From assembly GCF_029167625.1 (NCBI RefSeq), contig NZ_CP119145.1:4216001-4280000 (forward strand): DNA of 64,000 nucleotides, in the 5' to 3' direction. The notes below the pieces were generated by a model. The model saw only the letters and a program-made list of their open reading frames with translations, had not been told where the DNA came from and searched no databases. Origin of the DNA: Streptomyces sp. AM 4-1-1. Its GTDB lineage: Bacteria; Actinomycetota; Actinomycetes; Streptomycetales; Streptomycetaceae. Position 1 is the stretch's first letter. Each line of letters begins with the position of its first letter. The position numbers were made by a program, and so were the translations under genes. Positions 24,460 through 32,337 of the stretch are shown piece by piece.

Positions 24460-24533
24460 GCCGCCTTAGCTCAGCTGGCCAGAGCAACGCACTCGTAATG
24501 CGTAGGTCTCGGGTTCGAATCCCGAAGGCGGCT
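24460..24533 (+). tRNA. tRNA-Thr, anticodon CGT
   Basis: 74-base cloverleaf: acceptor GCCGCCT (24460-24466) pairs with AGGCGGC (24526-24532); anticodon stem ACGCA / TGCGT with loop CTCGTAA (anticodon CGT at 24494-24496); T arm with GGTTCGAATCC. CCA is not encoded. This gene marks the left edge of the accessory island; tRNA genes are common integrase targets. Confidence 0.97.
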
Positions 24534-24540
24534 CGGAATT

Positions 24541-24576
24541 ACCCCAGGACTCACTCGCCGTGACCTGGGGTTTTTT
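24541..24576 (+). terminator. Rho-independent terminator after tRNA-Thr
   Basis: ACCCCAGG (24541-24548) and CCTGGGGT (24564-24571) form an 8-base stem followed by six T residues. The best-formed terminator in the window. Confidence 0.85.
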
Positions 24577-24782
24577 CATGTTGTGGTCGTGGCGGGGTGC
24601 TCGGCCGCAGCGGCGTGGAGGGGCTTGTGTGAGCGATGCGTGAGCGGATGGGCCCGGAAGAGGTGCACGGCTGAGCGCTGCGGTTCATGATCTGGCATTC
24701 GCCTCAAACCGCGCGACGCAGTGCCATCAGCGGCTTAGGGTGGCGAAGCTCGGTACTCGGAACGCAGAGAGGTGAAGACGGG

Positions 24783-25838
24783 GTGGCGCGCTGCAACTGT
24801 GGGCAGGAGGTTGACAAGAGTGACACCTTTTGTCGGGCCTGTGGTGTGCGCACCTCTTCGGCCAGCTCGCTGTGTAGAACTCTCAGCCGACGCGCCGAGT
24901 TGACCTTCGAAGCCTTGGCTGCCGAGCACCGTAGGGGCTGGCCGTCGAGCGAAGTGACACACACCGAGGAGAATCTTCGGGCCATCGATCGGGCTCATGG
25001 TGACCGGGTGGCGATCCATCCGTTCGCGAGCGATGAGGAACGCTCGAACGGAGCGGACTGGGAGTGGTGGTTTCACTCTGGTGCCGTGGGGTTCGGCATG
25101 CGTGTCCAAGCGAAGCGTGCCAACCGAAACGGCGGATACGACCTACGATATCGACCCGATGGTGACAGGTATCAGAATGATCTTCTGATCGAGGACGCCA
25201 TGAACGCAGGTTGCATTCCAGCCTATGTCTTCTACAACCACCTCAACTGGCCACAGAGACGACCAGGCAAGCCGTGGTTGGGCTGCGACCATGGCACCTT
25301 CAATGAGGGGCAGCTGGGATGCACCATAGCGTCAGCCCTGGTTGTAAAGCAGACGCTTCGCGGAGCGCGCGCCAGCTCGCGATACGTGAAGGATCGCAGT
25401 CGCCCTTGGAACCGCATCCTTTGCGATGGGAGTGAATCCAGGGCGCCAAGCCTGGAAATTGCTTACGGGAGGGTGCTGAGTCTGCACCAGACGGCTCTTG
25501 CGGAGCTTGAGGGGGAGACGGAGCTCTCGGAGAACTTTCGGGTAGTGGCTAGAACTCCGATCCGGCTGGCCAACCCAGAGAAGCCGGGCCGGGTTGGTCG
25601 TCATCAGCACGATGGCGAGGATGACCGCGGGCGCGTCGAGCACGAGGCGACACGTGGTGCAGCGCCGCTTAGTCCAACTGAACGTGCCCTTCGCGAACAA
25701 CTACGGGAAATGGCAGACCGTCCGGTTGGCCGGCTTCCGCAACGCGTACGAGCCATGGTCCGTGGCGCTGAGGGGGAACCGGCCGACGAGCGAGTTGCCG
25801 GTGCGGTGCTAGTGAATCTTGGCTCGGCTGAGACCTGA
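24783..25838 (+). CDS. DUF6615-like protein with N-terminal zinc ribbon, probable frameshift near its 3' end
   Basis: N-terminal zinc ribbon (CNCGQ near residue 4, CRACG near 17), then a domain matching what I recall of DUF6615: LCRTL...RRAELTFEALA, the motif GADWEWWF, then VQAKRAN and QNDLLIEDAM...PAYVFYNH. An acidic pair followed by Q-A-K resembles the core of PD-(D/E)XK nucleases, so a nucleic-acid or defence role is possible but unproven. GTG start at 24783 with AGAGGTG upstream. GC content is clearly below the neighbours, a sign of transfer. From about 25580 the high-GC third position moves to another frame (read GLVVIST... to a stop at 25812), so the listed C-terminus is probably wrong because of a 1-base indel. 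Confidence 0.6.
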   Translation: MARCNCGQEVDKSDTFCRACGVRTSSASSLCRTLSRRAELTFEALAAEHRRGWPSSEVTHTEENLRAIDRAHGDRVAIHPFASDEERSNGADWEWWFHSGAVGFGMRVQAKRANRNGGYDLRYRPDGDRYQNDLLIEDAMNAGCIPAYVFYNHLNWPQRRPGKPWLGCDHGTFNEGQLGCTIASALVVKQTLRGARASSRYVKDRSRPWNRILCDGSESRAPSLEIAYGRVLSLHQTALAELEGETELSENFRVVARTPIRLANPEKPGRVGRHQHDGEDDRGRVEHEATRGAAPLSPTERALREQLREMADRPVGRLPQRVRAMVRGAEGEPADERVAGAVLVNLGSAET

Positions 25839-25859
25839 GGTTTACCCGGGGCCGCGAGC

Positions 25860-26060
25860 GGCAGGCCATCCCGGAGAAGTCGCCCTTCTTCTTGCCCTTG
25901 GCCCGGTCTTTCGCTTTCACCTTTGCCTTCTTGGCGGCCTTCGCCGCCTTACGGGCGGCCTGCTCGGCCTCGGCCTTGCGCTGGAGGGGGACCAGCTTGG
26001 CGGTGGCCTCTGCGGCGCTCTTCCCGACGTGAGGCAGGACGCTTAATGGTGACGTCGGGT
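25860..26060 (-). pseudogene. Fragment of a lysine/alanine-rich coding sequence, origin unknown
   Basis: On the minus strand an open stretch with coding-like composition reads LPHVGKSAAEATAKLVPLQR, then an A/K-rich tail ending KAKDRAKGKKKGDFSG. No start codon fits it, and it is flanked by non-coding sequence on both sides. It looks like the C-terminal end of a protein from an earlier mobile element. I do not recognise the family. Confidence 0.3.
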
Positions 26061-26142
26061 ATTGGAACTATCCGAATGCCTCTGATCCGGAGCCCCCGGT
26101 GTGCGGCCTGGGAGCCGACGTCAGCCTTGAGTATGCGAGCGC

Positions 26143-26871
26143 TCAGACCTGTTCGAAATGGAACGCCTTGATGAAGCAGTCGCGGGGCTGGGCGACTGCG
26201 AAGAGGATGCAGTCCACGAGCGACTGACCGGTGAGGGGATCCTTGGCCTCGCGCGGGGTGGTCTCCCACTCCTCGGAGAGCGGGTCGGCGTTGTCGAAGT
26301 CGGGCGGGTAGAGCGATATCACCCGGACACCTTGGGGCCGTAGGCGCTTGGAGAGGATCTCGGTGAACCCGGCCTGTGCGCTCTTGGCTGCATAGAAGGC
26401 GTCGTGTGCGTCCGAGCGGTGATGTCCGGCCGTTCCGCAGGCGGAGACCATCGTCACGACGTCCGGCTTGTCCGAGTTGAGCAGGAGCGGGAGGAAGTTC
26501 TTCACGGTCAGGACCGTGCCCGTGGCGCCGGATGCGATGGTGTCGACGATATCGGCGTCGGATGCTGCCTGGAGATCCGGCCCTTCGAGGTAGCGCGAGC
26601 CGTTGTTGATCAGGATGTCGACGCGGTCGGTGTGCTGGGTGACGCTGGAAGCGAAGTCGCGGATTGAGGCGGGATCCGTCAGGTTGCAGGCGTAGGCGTG
26701 GACCCGCTGGTGGCCTCGGTCTCGGATCTCGTCGCGGACACCCTCAGCGGCAGCGAGGCTGCGTGCGGACAGGAAGACCTCGGCGCCAAGGTCTGCGAGC
26801 CGGATGGCCAGAGTTCGCCCGAAGTCGCGCCCGGCAGCAGTGATGACGACGCGGTGGTTGTCGAATCTCAT
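26143..26871 (-). CDS. Short-chain dehydrogenase/reductase (SDR)
   Basis: 242-residue Rossmann oxidoreductase, probably NADP-linked. Cofactor loop TAAGRDFG (residues 11-18, a variant of TGxxxGxG), NNGS at 89-92 in place of NNAG, and catalytic Ser143 (SACG), Tyr160 and Lys163 (YAAK). Substrate unknown. The ATG overlaps the stop of the large zinc-ribbon gene by 4 bases, so it is the last gene of the recombinase operon, an odd place for a metabolic enzyme. Cargo or an accessory function are both possible. Confidence 0.8.
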   Translation of the reverse strand: MRFDNHRVVITAAGRDFGRTLAIRLADLGAEVFLSARSLAAAEGVRDEIRDRGHQRVHAYACNLTDPASIRDFASSVTQHTDRVDILINNGSRYLEGPDLQAASDADIVDTIASGATGTVLTVKNFLPLLLNSDKPDVVTMVSACGTAGHHRSDAHDAFYAAKSAQAGFTEILSKRLRPQGVRVISLYPPDFDNADPLSEEWETTPREAKDPLTGQSLVDCILFAVAQPRDCFIKAFHFEQV

Positions 26872-29312
26872 GATTTTGTTCCTTGTTCGTGGACCGGCTG
26901 TTGTTGCGGTGAAGCGCGGCGGGCGACCTCGGCTGCGTAGGTGGCCCAGTCGCCCGCGGAGAGCCGTTGCCAGGCGACGGCGACGTCAGTGTGGATGCCC
27001 AGGGTGCGGGCGAGGATCGCGGCGGGGATCTCGGTGGCGAGCTGGAAGAGTGCGGTGCTGCGGGCCTGATTGGGCCGGATCCCGAGCTGGGTCAGCCGCT
27101 GGGTCAGCTGTGTGGTGCTGATCGGGCGTCCGGGCTGGCCACCGGGGAAGAGCCAGGGTGAGGGAGCCAGGGCGCCGATGGTCGCGTGACCCTTGCGGTT
27201 CGCGGCGACAGTGCGGGCCAGTGCGGCGACGGGCTCGGGCAGTTGGACGGGTGCATCGCCGAGGTGGAGACGTACTGCCTGAGCGCCGACCTCGACGTCC
27301 TCGATGGTCAGTCGGTGGATCGCCGATGGCCCTTGTGCGTAGAGGAGGAGAAGCAGTCCTGCGAGGCGGTCTTCGGGCTTGAGGGTGTCGTCGTGCAGGA
27401 GTCGGCGTGCGACGTTCCACCGGTGCTCGTCATCGAGTGGCTGGGTGGGGCCGTTCCAGCGGATTGCGGGGACGTGGACGGTGGTGAGCTTGTTGGTGCG
27501 AGCCCAGCGGACGAAGTGCCCGGCTGTGTGGCGGTAGGTCGCGGAGTCGTCGGTAAGCCACTCGTCGAGGTCGGCCTGTCGGCAGGTATCCAGGGCGAGG
27601 TCGTGAGCCTGAAGCCAGGTAAGGAAGGCGACGGCCGCGTGGGTGCGTTGACGCGTTGATGCGAACTGCTGCGGGGTCAGGGGGCGGCCGTTGCTGCGTC
27701 GGCGTAGTCGACGGACCAGGTGCCATATCGCGTACTGGTGAAGGACTTTGCGCTGTTCGGGGTCTTGCTGTGCTGCGAGAAGGCCGGTGAGGAAACGTTC
27801 GAGGCGGACCATGTACTCGTCCCGCTCGGGCAGGGCACCGACGCCGACGAGGACTTGGCGGAGGTGGGCGAGGGGCGGGCTGTCGGGCAGCTCGTCGAGG
27901 GCCTCGTGAGTCAGGGCTCGTCTGCCGGCCGCGAGGTCGGCCAGGACCGGAGACACGGACGGCTTGTTCAGCCACCGCCTGGCGGTGAGTGGGTGCTCGG
28001 TGGTGGCGATGTTGTTCCGCAGGGCTTGGAGACCGGGGTGGAGGGCATCGGACGGAGGGCCCAGGAGCTCGTTGAGGCGTCGGTTGATGAGACAACGAGC
28101 GCACTGGCCGGGGTGCGGGTAGTCGGGATCGCTGCAGGTAGGGCAGGTGTGCCAGACCTCAGAGACGGTGCAGTCCGCGCAAAGGGGCTGGTCGAGAGTG
28201 CCGGAGACGACCGCCGCGACGCTGTCGCAGGCTGAGCACGGCGCGGAGTGACGCTGGCAGTCCAGGCACCATGGCCGACCCGTAGTGCGGGAGGTGCCGC
28301 AGGGTTTCTCCGCGTCGCAGATACTGCAAGTCGCGGTGGGCAGGGAGGGGCAGCTTTGGCAGAGCGGGCCGTCCGGTGTGCGGGTGTTCACGACCCTTCG
28401 TCGGCCGCAGTTGATGCAGGTCTCCAGGTTCGCCGGGGCGCTGACCAGGCAGTTCGGACACACTGGCCGGCCTTGGTCGTCGCGGGTGGCGGGCTCTCGG
28501 CGGGCTCCGCATCCCGAGCACTCCTCGATGCGGGAGTGGGAGATGCACATGCGGCAGACCCGCTTTCCGTCCAGAGGCTTGTCGATGCGTACGACTCTGT
28601 GGCAGCCGGGGCAGGACGGCCGGACGATCCCGGCGATGCCGGCCTCGTGCAGCAGGTCGATCAGCTTGAGGATCGCGCGGTGGGGTGCGAGGTGACCGTC
28701 GCCGGTCAGCAGAGCGGGGTGGGCTTCCAGGGCCCAGGCAATTTTCCGCTGGTAGGAAGGGCGAGGCGCCGATCGACGGACCGCGTCGGAGACCGTCTCC
28801 CGTTCGGCCTGCGGATCCAGTTCAGCGATCAGGGCGCCGATCACTGCGATGGGGTCGCGTCCGTCGTCGTCCGGGCACTTGGCGCATCGTGGCTGCCCGG
28901 TCCGGTCGCGTGAAGTGACCCGGCGGGTGTTTCCGCAGGCAGCACACGGCTCGGGCTGTGGCTGTCCGCAGGTCCAGCAGTACCAGTCCTGGCCGCGGCG
29001 CTGGAGCGTTCGTATCTGCGTGCCGCATTCGGCGCAACGCGGCGGCGAGACCGTCTGGGCCCCGGCCTCACGCAGGGCGATGAGCAGGTCGCCGACGGCC
29101 CTGGGCGCCGGCGAGCGACCGTCGTTCAGCACGCGAGGATGCTCAGTGAGATGTGCCGCGAGGAGGCGTGACTTCGAGCGTCCGCCCGCGACGCCGGCGA
29201 CCACGGCACGGATCCGGTCCGGTTCCAGCTGATGCTCGATGGCTGCGACCAGGTCCGCGATGAGCCCGATCGGGTCGCAGACGGCCCGCTCGGGGTGCCC
29301 GGGTGCGGTCAC
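26868..29312 (-). CDS. Large protein with 16 CxxC motifs and a degraded tyrosine-recombinase-like C-terminus
   Basis: 814 residues. Residues 13-98 and 153-238 are an internal duplication (each starts DPI and ends in a helix-rich segment before a cysteine pair). Residues 93-407 carry 16 CxxC motifs, enough for eight zinc ribbons. Residues about 500-790 follow the layout of tyrosine recombinases: a SAM-like DNA-binding part, then LLLLYAQGPSAIHRLTIEDV, WLFPGG and ARTLGIHTDVA. The first catalytic arginine is absent (GPSAIHRL where GLRxxE is usual) and no HxxR box is seen, so catalysis is unlikely. Both ends are coupled by 4-base overlaps to the HTH gene and the SDR gene. I infer a zinc-dependent DNA-binding partner of the adjacent recombinase. 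Confidence 0.7.
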   Translation of the reverse strand: MTAPGHPERAVCDPIGLIADLVAAIEHQLEPDRIRAVVAGVAGGRSKSRLLAAHLTEHPRVLNDGRSPAPRAVGDLLIALREAGAQTVSPPRCAECGTQIRTLQRRGQDWYCWTCGQPQPEPCAACGNTRRVTSRDRTGQPRCAKCPDDDGRDPIAVIGALIAELDPQAERETVSDAVRRSAPRPSYQRKIAWALEAHPALLTGDGHLAPHRAILKLIDLLHEAGIAGIVRPSCPGCHRVVRIDKPLDGKRVCRMCISHSRIEECSGCGARREPATRDDQGRPVCPNCLVSAPANLETCINCGRRRVVNTRTPDGPLCQSCPSLPTATCSICDAEKPCGTSRTTGRPWCLDCQRHSAPCSACDSVAAVVSGTLDQPLCADCTVSEVWHTCPTCSDPDYPHPGQCARCLINRRLNELLGPPSDALHPGLQALRNNIATTEHPLTARRWLNKPSVSPVLADLAAGRRALTHEALDELPDSPPLAHLRQVLVGVGALPERDEYMVRLERFLTGLLAAQQDPEQRKVLHQYAIWHLVRRLRRRSNGRPLTPQQFASTRQRTHAAVAFLTWLQAHDLALDTCRQADLDEWLTDDSATYRHTAGHFVRWARTNKLTTVHVPAIRWNGPTQPLDDEHRWNVARRLLHDDTLKPEDRLAGLLLLLYAQGPSAIHRLTIEDVEVGAQAVRLHLGDAPVQLPEPVAALARTVAANRKGHATIGALAPSPWLFPGGQPGRPISTTQLTQRLTQLGIRPNQARSTALFQLATEIPAAILARTLGIHTDVAVAWQRLSAGDWATYAAEVARRASPQQQPVHEQGTKS

Positions 29313-29650
29313 GGCCGCTCGAAACCGCGGATGCGGGCTCGCTTGGGTCGCAGGTCACCGACACCTGCCTCGGCACCGACAGCCTTCTTTGTGCGGGTAG
29401 TGGTTTCGGCACCCGCCGCGGCGGTCGGCTCGATGAGGTCGTCCATGGTGCAGTCGAGGATGTCGAGCAGGGCCATGAGGATCTTCAGGCTGAGCCGCTC
29501 GGGGCGCTCGACGACGAGCCGGTAGACCTGGCTGGACGAAAGGGTGATGCCCCGCTTGTCCAGCAGCGGGATGAGGTCGGTGGTGGAGAAGAGCCCTCGG
29601 TCGGCCATGACCTTGCGCAAGTGCCAGTGGTAGTCGAGCTTCGCGGCCAT
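29309..29650 (-). CDS. Cro/C1-type helix-turn-helix protein
   Basis: 113-residue small DNA-binding protein. The HTH covers about residues 8-72 (LRKVMADRG; LLDKRGITLSSSQVYRLV; LSLKILMALLDILDCTMDDLI), the Cro-like pattern. The tail is basic (RPKRARIRGFERP). It is coupled upstream to the recombinase (TGATG, 1-base overlap) and downstream to the zinc-ribbon gene (4-base overlap). It may repress the operon or act as a recombination directionality factor. Confidence 0.82.
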   Translation of the reverse strand: MAAKLDYHWHLRKVMADRGLFSTTDLIPLLDKRGITLSSSQVYRLVVERPERLSLKILMALLDILDCTMDDLIEPTAAAGAETTTRTKKAVGAEAGVGDLRPKRARIRGFERP

Positions 29651-30777
29651 CAGCGGTCCTTGTTTGCGGGGAACGAGGCGAGCGCGGGCGCAAGTGCCCT
29701 GTGGAGCATGGTGTTCATGAAGTCGTCGCTGACGTGGGTGTAGATAGCGGTGGAGCTGTCATTCTCGTGACCGACTTGCTGCTGGAGAAACCGGCGGTCA
29801 ACCCCGTCCTCTGTGAGGTGGGTGACGTAGGAGTGGCGAGCGGAGTGGACCGTCAGCGCCTTCGGGAGCTTCAGCGCGTCGCGGTAGGCGACGAACCGGG
29901 CGTTGATCTCGGCCGGCTTGACCCGGCCGCCCCGCTCGGTCACCCACAAGGCGGGGTGATCCTCGCAGCCGAACCGCGGCCGTACGTTCTCCACGTAATC
30001 GGCGACCGCGTCCACCGCCCAGTCCATCACCGACAGCACGTTCCGACGGCGCGGCGGCTGCCCCTTCTTCGCCTTGCCGTAGCGGACGTTGAGGGTGCCG
30101 TACCGGCCGAACTGCGGTGCCTTCGCGTTCCGCCCGAAGTCGACCACATCCAGCTTCGATGTCTCCGTCCGGCGCAGACCCCACCCATAGATGACCTTGA
30201 AGAGGGTGGCATCGCGGTAGGCGGCGAGGGCTCCCTTGCGCTTGGCCCGTACCGCTCGATCGACCTGGTCGTCGGCGTAGTCGAGGAAGCGTTGGATCTC
30301 CTCGCGGGTGAACGGCCTCGCCTCGGGGCGCCCCTCGTAGTCGTTGAGGTGGGCGATGGTGTTCCACTCGTGGCAGATGGCCACGGGGTGAGTGCCGAAA
30401 GCGTCCTCGCAGGCCACCGACCAGCCGTAGCGGCCGTCGATCAAGAACTCGCTGAACAGGCGCAGGCTGCCCTGATAACTGCGGATCGTGGACGGCGCGA
30501 GGTGCTTCTCGCTGGTCAGCCACAGTGACCACTCGTCCACGTGGCCGGGCGTCCAGGCCCACGGGTATTCGTTCGTGTGCTCCAGAAACCGCCGTACGAG
30601 CCGTTCCCGAGCGGTGACCGTGTCCTCCCGGAGCCCGCGAGCGGCTTGTTGGGCCCGCCAGCCCCGCACCATGGCTTCGACCATCGCGTCCTGCGGACGC
30701 AGCTGGACAACCCCGGACACCAGCTCCAGGTGAGCTGCCCCCGCCAGCTCGGCGCGTCGCTGTAGACCCACTTTCAC
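29650..30777 (-). CDS. Tyrosine-type site-specific recombinase, intact
   Basis: 375 residues. N-terminal SAM-like domain (about 30-125, APSTIRSYQGSLRLFSEFL) and catalytic domain with Arg202 (GWGLRRTE), Lys235 (RYGKAKKG), His311 and Arg314 (HSARH), His337 (VGHEND) and nucleophile Tyr346 (AIYTHV). All the expected catalytic residues are present. It is the first gene of a four-gene coupled operon. The target site is unknown; its position 5 kb from tRNA-Thr, with another integrase relic between it and the ABC-F gene, argues against assuming it inserted at the tRNA. Confidence 0.92.
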   Translation of the reverse strand: MKVGLQRRAELAGAAHLELVSGVVQLRPQDAMVEAMVRGWRAQQAARGLREDTVTARERLVRRFLEHTNEYPWAWTPGHVDEWSLWLTSEKHLAPSTIRSYQGSLRLFSEFLIDGRYGWSVACEDAFGTHPVAICHEWNTIAHLNDYEGRPEARPFTREEIQRFLDYADDQVDRAVRAKRKGALAAYRDATLFKVIYGWGLRRTETSKLDVVDFGRNAKAPQFGRYGTLNVRYGKAKKGQPPRRRNVLSVMDWAVDAVADYVENVRPRFGCEDHPALWVTERGGRVKPAEINARFVAYRDALKLPKALTVHSARHSYVTHLTEDGVDRRFLQQQVGHENDSSTAIYTHVSDDFMNTMLHRALAPALASFPANKDR

Positions 30778-30835
30778 CCTCCCCTTCAGAGGGCAAATCC
30801 TGCATCAGATGGGATCCGATTACCAAACTCCCAGC

Positions 30836-32337
30836 TCAGGCCGCCAAGTTGCAGGAGGACAGAGTCCTCCTTTGGACCTGCCCTGACCTCGCGACCTGCG
30901 GTTTCTCGCCCGCCTGATGCAATTCCTGAGGGTTCGGGTAGATGTCCCGCGTGATCCGGGTATCGCTGTGGCCGAGGGTGTCGGAGACGATCTTGACGTC
31001 GATGCCGGCGGCGAGCATGAGTGTGGCAGCTCCGTGCCGGAGGTCGTGTAGGCGGATCGGAGGGAAGCCGGAGACGGCGACGAGTCGTTCGAAGAGGTCA
31101 GTGACCTTACCGGGGTGGAGCCAGGAGCCGTCGGCCTGGGTGAAGACGAGTCCGGTATCGACCCAGGCTGTCGCCCACTCCGCGCGGTCCGCGTACTGCT
31201 GTTTGCGATGGCGTTCCAGGACGTCGACGGTGTCGTCGTCGAGCGCCACGATGCGGAAGCCGCTGCCGGTCTTGGGATCAGACGACTCGACTTCCCAGCC
31301 GTCCTGTACGAGTTGGGAGGAGACGGTGGGGGAGTGGGTGTCGAGGTTCATCTCCGACCATGGCTGCCCGCACGCCTCGCCACGGCGCAGGCCCCGGAAG
31401 GCGATCAGGTGCCACATCGCGTATAGCCGGTCCTCGGCGACGAAGTCGAGGAAGGCACCGGTCTGCTGGGGTGTCCAGACCATCACGGGTGACGGCTTCT
31501 CGCCCGTCTGTTCCCACTTGGCGACCCGCTCGTCCGTCCAGACGAGCGCCTTCGGTTTGCGCACGGGATCGATCTCGACATGGGCGGCGGGGTTGAACGT
31601 GATGATTTGTTGCCGGATCGCATCGTTCAGGGCAGCCGGAGCGTCGTCTTGACGTGCAGGCGCGTGGCGGGTCCGGTCGGGCGCCGGAAGGGCGGCATCT
31701 CGTCGATCGCGGCCTTCATCGCCTTACGGTGGGCGCGGTTCTCCACGCCCTTCCAGGGCACGGTCGCCATCTCGTCGATTGCGGCGCGCCGCTGGGCGTT
31801 GTCCTCCAGGATTTGGGCGTTGGCGTCGCGGATGTCCGTGAACATCTCGTTGAGGTGGCTGACGCGCAGCCGGTCCAGACGCCGGTTTCCGATGCGCGGC
31901 TTCAGGTGGACGCGGATGTCGGTCTCGTAGCGGTTGAGGCCGGACTTGCGTATGCGCTTGCCGGCCAGCCACCGGTCGAGCCACTGCACCACCGGTTCGG
32001 CTTCCTCGGCCTCGGCGAACGCGCGGTACAGCGAGGCGACGGACGGCGAGGTGCCCGCGTTCTTGATGGTCTTGATGGTGAGCTTGCCCGCGATCTCGGG
32101 GACGGAGACGCCTGTCCTGTCGCATTCGAGTCGGTGGGTGACGGGGCTCTGATCTGCGGAGCTTCCAGAGAGTCCGGGAACGCGGTTCGGTTGCGATCTC
32201 AAACGGGTTGGCTTTCGCGGAGGTGGGACCCGCCCTCCCGGCGGCGAGAATCCGGCTTCCCGTGCCGTCCGCGCCGGTGCCGTACGCGTACTCGTCGTCG
32301 CCGGTCGACCGAGGGGATTCGCCCGCCTCTGTTGCAC
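30836..32337 (-). pseudogene. Frameshifted tyrosine integrase with a serine-recombinase-like segment at its front
   Basis: The frame from 32337 ends at 31627 with ...THVKTTLR then a stop; moving one base restores AALNDAIRQQIITFNP, which runs into the catalytic frame from about 31620 to 30836. So one lost base near 31640 splits the gene. The catalytic part keeps Arg (FRGLRRGE), HDLRH and LGHSDTRITRDIY. The N-terminal part has a DNA-binding domain (WLAGKRIRKSGLNRYETDI). Bases 31999-32106 encode SVPEIAGKL...PSVASLYRAFAE, which matches the end of the serine recombinase relic at 34.3 kb, not an integrase. The true start is not identifiable. Confidence 0.8.

Follow-up and report, generated by a model that had tools for sequence, protein, structure and literature searches.

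The gamma-mobile-trio (GMT) is a three-gene mobile module with tyrosine recombinase (YR)-type proteins and cargo, and the third protein of Tn554, TnpC, is of the DUF6262 type. Inteins and homing introns insert into conserved codons of active sites, which make a dependable target that is hard to lose. According to the sections available of their description (PMC10214605), strand-biased circularizing integrative elements (SEs) are found in Gammaproteobacteria and are organised as intA-tfp-intB-srap, with two live YRs and Srap; the same sections (PMC10214605) list a dead YR, GinC, among the proteins of GInt. The donor att site of Tn554 is described as 'brought in' at the right end in the portion available of another source (PMC12486829), and in both SEs and Tn554-type elements the right hexamer is stated, in these portions, to come from the donor's left flank (PMC10214605, PMC12486829). 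The window, a stretch of 64,000 nucleotides of the Streptomyces sp. AM 4-1-1 genome (G000), contains a four-gene operon that is the body of a 4.9-kb multicopy tyrosine-recombinase transposon (Table 1). What is new about this element of soil bacteria is its target, which is usually the codon for the catalytic Tyr in another recombinase gene and is hit with nearly single-base precision.

Table 1. Coordinates in the window of the element, its genes, its ends and the interrupted integrase.
Feature	Position	Strand	Basis or remark
Whole mobile element, 4891 bp including the right hexamer	26044..30934	-	Alignment of three copies
Catalytically complete tyrosine recombinase, 375 aa	29650..30777	-	PF00589 1.9e-19
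XRE-type HTH protein (HTH_26), 113 aa	29309..29650	-	PF13443 3.6e-14
Zn protein, 814 aa: a pair of helical repeats, 16 CxxC and, at residues ~517-795, a dead YR fold	26868..29312	-	
SDR oxidoreductase, cargo gene	26143..26871	-	PF00106 1.5e-29
Left hexamer TACCCG, Tyr codon (TAC) and next codon of the integrase	30935..30940	-	Target-derived position
Left terminal core site AACCC-TCAGGAATTGCA	30918..30934	-	In register with the reverse-complemented right end
Right terminal core site, plus strand TGACG-TCGGGTATTGGAA	26050..26067	-	Conserved ~40-bp right end
Right hexamer CCATTA, element-borne	26044..26049	-	30/40 complete right ends
N-terminal-side integrase piece, ends ...GHSDTRITRDIY-P	30935..31723	-	Open frame of 262 codons
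C-terminal remainder of the window integrase (SVLPHVGKSAAEATAKLVPLQ...)	25803..26043	-	Joined frame and orthologs

All four genes were found where the earlier note had placed them, and of the overlaps that it gave, TGATG (recombinase/HTH) and ATGA (Zn/SDR) were read correctly, but the HTH/Zn junction is GTGA and not ATGA. The recombinase had been said to possess all catalytic residues, and R202, H311, R314, H337 and Y346 are indeed invariant in an alignment of 38 rows including its own. The 16 CxxC motifs counted in the 814-aa protein were confirmed and compare with a mean of 1.5 and a maximum of 7 in 2000 shuffles; of their 32 cysteines, 21 are invariant in the 40 aligned rows and a further 10 are conserved in 90% of the rows or more. 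The internal duplication proposed for residues 13-98 and 153-238 is real and extends further, over 13-115 and 153-256 (pairwise E 1e-9 at 31% identity). This protein had no match to any Pfam or NCBIfam model at E<=0.1. Structure prediction, suggested earlier for residues 500-790, models residues ~517-795 as a YR. The catalytic arginine claimed to be absent from this recombinase-like end is Arg I, missing by motif register, and the same register, which is an alignment reading and not a structural superposition, puts Trp781, invariant in 40 rows, at the Tyr position. A profile-profile comparison of the live with the dead YR gave no match.

Conservation of the trio was assessed in 40 loci with the best Zn-protein matches (39 from the same genus and one relic from the genome itself; weaker matches lie outside this sample) and in 60 loci from named genomes, recruited through their HTH match; 4 of these 60 duplicate 4 of the 40. 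Recruitment was via the trio and never via the target. The order recombinase-HTH-Zn is kept in 53 of the 60 and 36 of the 40 loci, and a Zn-protein match at E<=1e-20 is present in 108 of 295 genomes. Because the order recurs in dozens of loci, chance is excluded and the operon is real. The recurrence that the earlier note had asked about was thus found, and its pairing of a live and a dead YR with an HTH protein holds as a conserved unit. Neither of the outcomes that it had named as contrary, a Zn protein mostly apart from the other two genes or a C-terminus folded unlike a recombinase, was seen, because the trio is conserved and the C-terminus is predicted to fold as a YR. The multicopy transposon nature of the unit and its catalytic-Tyr target had not been foreseen.

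Three copies of the element are present in G000, in the window and at C1:~3078.4k and ~3874.9k, and were aligned over 4897 bp including the left hexamer, with identities of 99.88, 99.90 and 99.94%; the alignment stops at identical bases in all three. A PF00589 search of the genome gave three places with identical scores, and the Zn protein was found three times at 100% identity together with one diverged relic. This relic (L085, C1:~109508-112445) lies near the chromosome end; its Zn protein shows ~54% amino acid identity and its right end is still recognisable (82% over 50 bp). The left flanks of L009 and of the window copy, L011, are 87.8% alike over 1045 bp with the last 60 nt identical, so that these two may not be independent insertions and gene conversion is possible, and the flanks of L010 are unrelated to both. 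Genome G090 carries three copies, each in a different recombinase; relative to the copy L058, the other two show a difference of 1 base in 4965. Five contigs (L094, L095, L113, L117 and L131) start exactly at the predicted first base, as assemblies do at repeated elements. Among 72,556 plasmid records, 256 contained a Zn-protein match (62 over at least 80% of the protein), mostly from Streptomyces (124) and Rhodococcus (57), and none of 50,697 phage records did. Transfer or mobilisation genes, a feature of ICEs and IMEs, are absent from the element's four genes.

The left end mostly reads [A/G]A[C/G]CC[T]C[G/A]GGAATTGCA. At the right end, read as its reverse complement, 5 bp precede TCGGGTATTGGAA, and every one of the 34 copies compared shows agreement between the two ends at 8-11 of 18 bases. 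Outward of each end lies a 6-bp spacer, TACNNN on the left and CCATTA on the right. The left spacer begins with TAC or TAT in 44 of 47 junctions, non-YR targets included. For the right spacer, 42 right-end motif matches were reduced to 40 complete ends by exclusion of L074 (inside the Zn gene) and L102 (contig end); ten of these carry variants (CCATTT, CCGTTA and CCAGAG twice each, GCATTA, CCATTG, CCATAG and CCGACA once each) and TACNNN occurs in none of the 40. The left hexamer is therefore the target's and the right hexamer travels with the element, and the spacer logic thus differs from that of SEs and Tn554-type elements.

Readable junctions numbered 47, including the three of G000, after setting aside four duplicates, L102 (a run of N), six distant-clade loci (L078, L080, L082, L083, L145 and L152) and loci without a readable motif or with a contig end at the junction. 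In 37 of them the element lies co-directionally, directly after TAC-NNN, with TAC being the catalytic-Tyr codon of a YR as assigned by motif reading; in L062 and L137, where two Tyr codons adjoin, this TAC is the later one (one codon on). Of the 45 upstream frames, three of them from distant clades and several no more than short fragments, 30 matched PF00589 at E<=1e-3, two matched 2_5_RNA_ligase2 and one LigT_PEase. The targets of 36 of the 37 Tyr-codon junctions form 23 clusters (60% identity over 40 aa). All three G000 copies begin exactly at the TAC of the target's catalytic Tyr, in two diverged AICE-type integrases (...GHSDTRITRDI-Y) and one TnpA-like YR (...GHAQLETTKAV-Y). Ten of the 47 junctions lie away from a YR Tyr codon: L071, L072 and L074 are in LigT-like targets with the motif PH[LIV][ST]L[AG]Y (by eye), L063 and L073 are outside YR genes as far as read, the target of L135 reads like an ISL3-type transposase and that of L141 like a helicase motif, and L105 and L119 are in YR genes, inserted 4 bp further on by hand reading of the letters. 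L109 is a tandem insertion, directly behind another right-end-like sequence with the hexamer CCGACG. Seven regions from plasmid records gave three more Tyr-codon junctions (L201, L203 and L205), while three of the other four showed no left end and one is truncated by the start of its record.

Both ends were read in 34 loci (32 with YR targets). When the left flank through TACNNN was joined to the right flank, the frame stayed open for at least 16 codons in all 34, giving typical YR C-termini (DIYG-HLVPRAW, NIYT-HLWPDS, LYV-RRLDVRRIYREAY); as read from these sequences, insertion neither loses nor duplicates a target base. Homologous YRs are interrupted at the same codon (MRYV-RPSATFIEDAY) by elements of different clades, L059 (G090) and L153 (a Mycobacterium plasmid). 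The comparison with relatives at the insertion, also proposed in the earlier note, yielded uninterrupted orthologs, 12 for the target of L086 and L057, all reading TACGCC-CAC as in the occupied copies, and 32 for the window target, 27 of them reading TACCAG followed by AGC or a close variant; these were picked because the match spans the site and so show that empty sites exist, not how frequent they are. What speaks against a straightforward reading is that the two occupied G000 integrases carry TACCCG where the native site is TACCAG, one base off. The ortholog L154 (G085) reads TACCATTA-AGCG, a frameshifting scar resembling a residue of the right hexamer, and the ortholog L196 (G085) reads TATCAG-AACCC...; both are suggestive only, as possible excision scars at the Tyr codon.

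In the window, ORF 30836-31564 of the N-terminal-side integrase piece matched PF00589 at 1.3e-16. The host integrase appears frame-broken between two ORFs (30836-32337), upstream of the insertion, whereas in its paralog at L009 the 476 codons up to the Tyr form an open frame. The YR frame interrupted in L010 is also broken upstream of the insertion, and a Tn554-like module (frames of 352, 707 and 206 aa, by eye) lies downstream of it at L010:12906-16497. Window positions 24460-25838 hold a tRNA-Thr(CGT) and then a DUF6615-like gene, the start of which resembles a zinc ribbon, next to the AICE remnant.

A cargo slot lies between the stop codon of the Zn gene and the right end. It is occupied by the SDR gene in the window copies, in L067, L120 and the degraded L143, and in an S. 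europaeiscabiei plasmid. Nine other cargo frames were scanned, with seven Pfam matches (two GNAT acetyltransferases, CN_hydrolase, HAD hydrolase, nucleotidyltransferase, DUF3626 and Imm21) and two without, and the slot measures only 11-43 bp, leaving no cargo, in L058-L060, L097, L119, L123, L135 and L153. Because other genes or none are found there elsewhere, the SDR is a passenger; its inclusion in the system by the earlier note had to be given up, as it is swappable cargo and several copies have none. The cargo of L061 is an Imm21-type immunity protein (3.6e-44), and L058-L060 (G090) have an extra 885 bp between the recombinase and HTH genes, with the usual slot empty.

A tree was calculated from 60 recombinases, leaving out near-copies and broken frames. 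The 29 rows labelled as targeting YR genes (L105, L119 and L133 among them) fall into one clade of 42 with support of 100/98, which also holds three rows labelled 'other' and ten without a determined target; immediately outside this clade are recombinases with LigT-like targets. In a distant clade, L075, L076 and L080 lie beside antisense coding for a P-loop (Walker A; GPPGAGKT, GASGSGKS). L082, L083 and L152, in distant clades, have a common target that differs from the P-loop. Target class follows the recombinase lineage, with shifts. The element's own recombinase gene carries the target site (GCTATC-TACACC), and its kin are targeted as well: L064 and L065 lie in 49-50% relatives, and L129, probably L125 too, in close relatives.

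Building on the ends, the copies, the cargo slot, the target rule, the target-derived left hexamer and the element-borne right hexamer demonstrated above, we hold with good confidence that this is a tyrosine-recombinase transposon in which the HTH protein and the Zn/dead-YR protein would join the live YR in one transpososome, with YR active-site codons as its target. The dead YR would occupy the non-catalytic positions of the synapse, and the putative helical/zinc array of the Zn protein would read target DNA, mainly sites with the signature of a YR active-site codon being used, with TAC opening the 6-bp spacer. The circular form would carry the element's own right hexamer, and integration would leave the target hexamer on the left and the element hexamer on the right, as in strand-biased exchange. 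Integrase genes of mobile elements would offer an always available and strongly conserved target, and insertion may gain transcription from the integrase promoter as well as transport by ICEs, transposons and plasmids, while the target integrase would be cut off just after its catalytic Tyr. In this the element resembles a parasite of mobile DNA, one whose choice of landing site is very unusual. We infer that the Zn/dead-YR protein chooses the insertion site; the earlier proposal that the unit sets target choice agrees with its striking target, whereas a physical complex and the role of any one protein in picking the site are putative. A possible but less likely variant retains the transposon but lets the live recombinase alone pick the target through a short motif (the TAC spacer and some upstream bases), with the Zn/dead-YR protein in a helper role, structural or regulatory, comparable to that of Tfp or GinC. 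The TAC spacer does recur in the non-YR targets L063, L071-L074 and L135; however, TAC by itself occurs much too often to account for the bias towards YR genes, and the conserved target bases beyond the spacer look imposed by YR coding in a comparison confined to targeted genes.

The integrase fragment that lies directly upstream and co-directional in most copies could be read as the element's own fourth gene, in a RIT- or Tn554-like quartet, instead of its target, but this is very improbable: the upstream YRs are diverse (the 23 clusters among 36), L010 has the trio of L009 and L011 with a different upstream YR, and the idea is refuted by target coding that resumes past the right end and by uninterrupted orthologs that exist without the trio. 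Virtually no weight is given to an island-specific AICE operon with an SDR function that is not self-mobile; the window copy does sit in an AICE-like integrase near tRNA-Thr, but near-identical copies at other places, cargo-free versions and plasmid copies refute it. Benign insertion, in which the element would provide an in-frame C-terminus (Y-x-[NDK]-P-R-E-L-H-Q...) and the target integrase would stay active, is unlikely. The frame is kept after the Tyr codon, with a tail of 34 aa in 33 of 47, and the third codon position is slightly more variable in a group of 22 loci (0.267 vs 0.226 and 0.188), but it is the least variable in the other group of 7 loci (0.145/0.193/0.121) and premature stops occur in L054, L068 and L121. 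The preferred transposon may itself belong to a wider 'active-site homing' family, a view on which we are evenly divided, in which a live YR and a zinc-array/dead-YR selector would read conserved active-site codons. The main clade would be self-referential: its target would be the catalytic-Tyr codon within its own enzyme superfamily, including its own recombinase and kin, and the other clades would have shifted to the 2H phosphoesterase motif PH-x-[ST]-L-x-Y and to antisense P-loop genes.

Recognising the DNA of a protein active site in genes that have diverged so far is an uncommon way to solve the targeting problem, and mobile elements are here seen preying on the integrases of other mobile elements. 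Because the right spacer travels with the element, it provides a clean natural test of strand bias in YR transposition, a question that Tn554, SEs and GInt still pose. The system could provide a modular protein for reading DNA, coupled to precise, scarless YR integration, and offers an explanation for many actinobacterial 'hypothetical protein' and 'site-specific integrase' labels and for many broken integrase genes.

To our knowledge, this target rule is shared by no other transposon, and we know of no YR-active-site target for Tn554. A description of such an element was not found in the open-licence literature, which is no proof of absence. None of the curated GMT models (GmtX, GmtY and GmtZ) reached its cut-off, the recombinase scoring 25.9 of 340 bits with GmtY and 12.2 of 600 with GmtZ, and the HTH and Zn proteins matched none of them. 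Inteins and homing introns splice out and preserve the host protein, whereas the element here does neither. The closest in kind are Tn554, SEs, GInt and RIT, and the element fails a defining test of each. With GInt and RIT it shares an operon of several YR-type proteins, and with GInt also a dead one among them (GinC) and cargo; however, GInt (ginABCD) has three integrases and a small HLH protein whereas only two YR-fold proteins are present here, RIT has three YRs that all possess the catalytic Tyr, which is not the case here, and the available parts of their descriptions mention no zinc array. The Tn554 family (Tn554, Tn552-II/Tn553) is similar in its three-gene YR transposition module, its target specificity, its 6-7-bp spacer and the absence of target duplication. 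However, Tn554 has two live YRs (TnpA and TnpB) where this element has one RHRY protein and another that by motif register lacks Arg I and Tyr, the small protein here matches only HTH_26 in Pfam and not TnpC, and the right end carries no donor att, never reading TACNNN. SEs, as far as the available sections of their description go (PMC10214605), resemble the element as multi-gene YR transposons with a dead-YR partner (Tfp) and in imperfect terminal inverted repeats around 6-bp spacers, with the attB hexamer passing to attL; here too inverted repeats flank 6-bp spacers and the attB hexamer is found at attL, with the window target one base off. The SE gene set was not found, the element having one live YR, an XRE-HTH protein, a Zn array and a YR-gene target. 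Moreover, in those sections (PMC10214605) the left hexamer of the SE donor passes to attR, whereas the right hexamer here is element-borne, which argues against an SE-type circle carrying only the left-flank hexamer.
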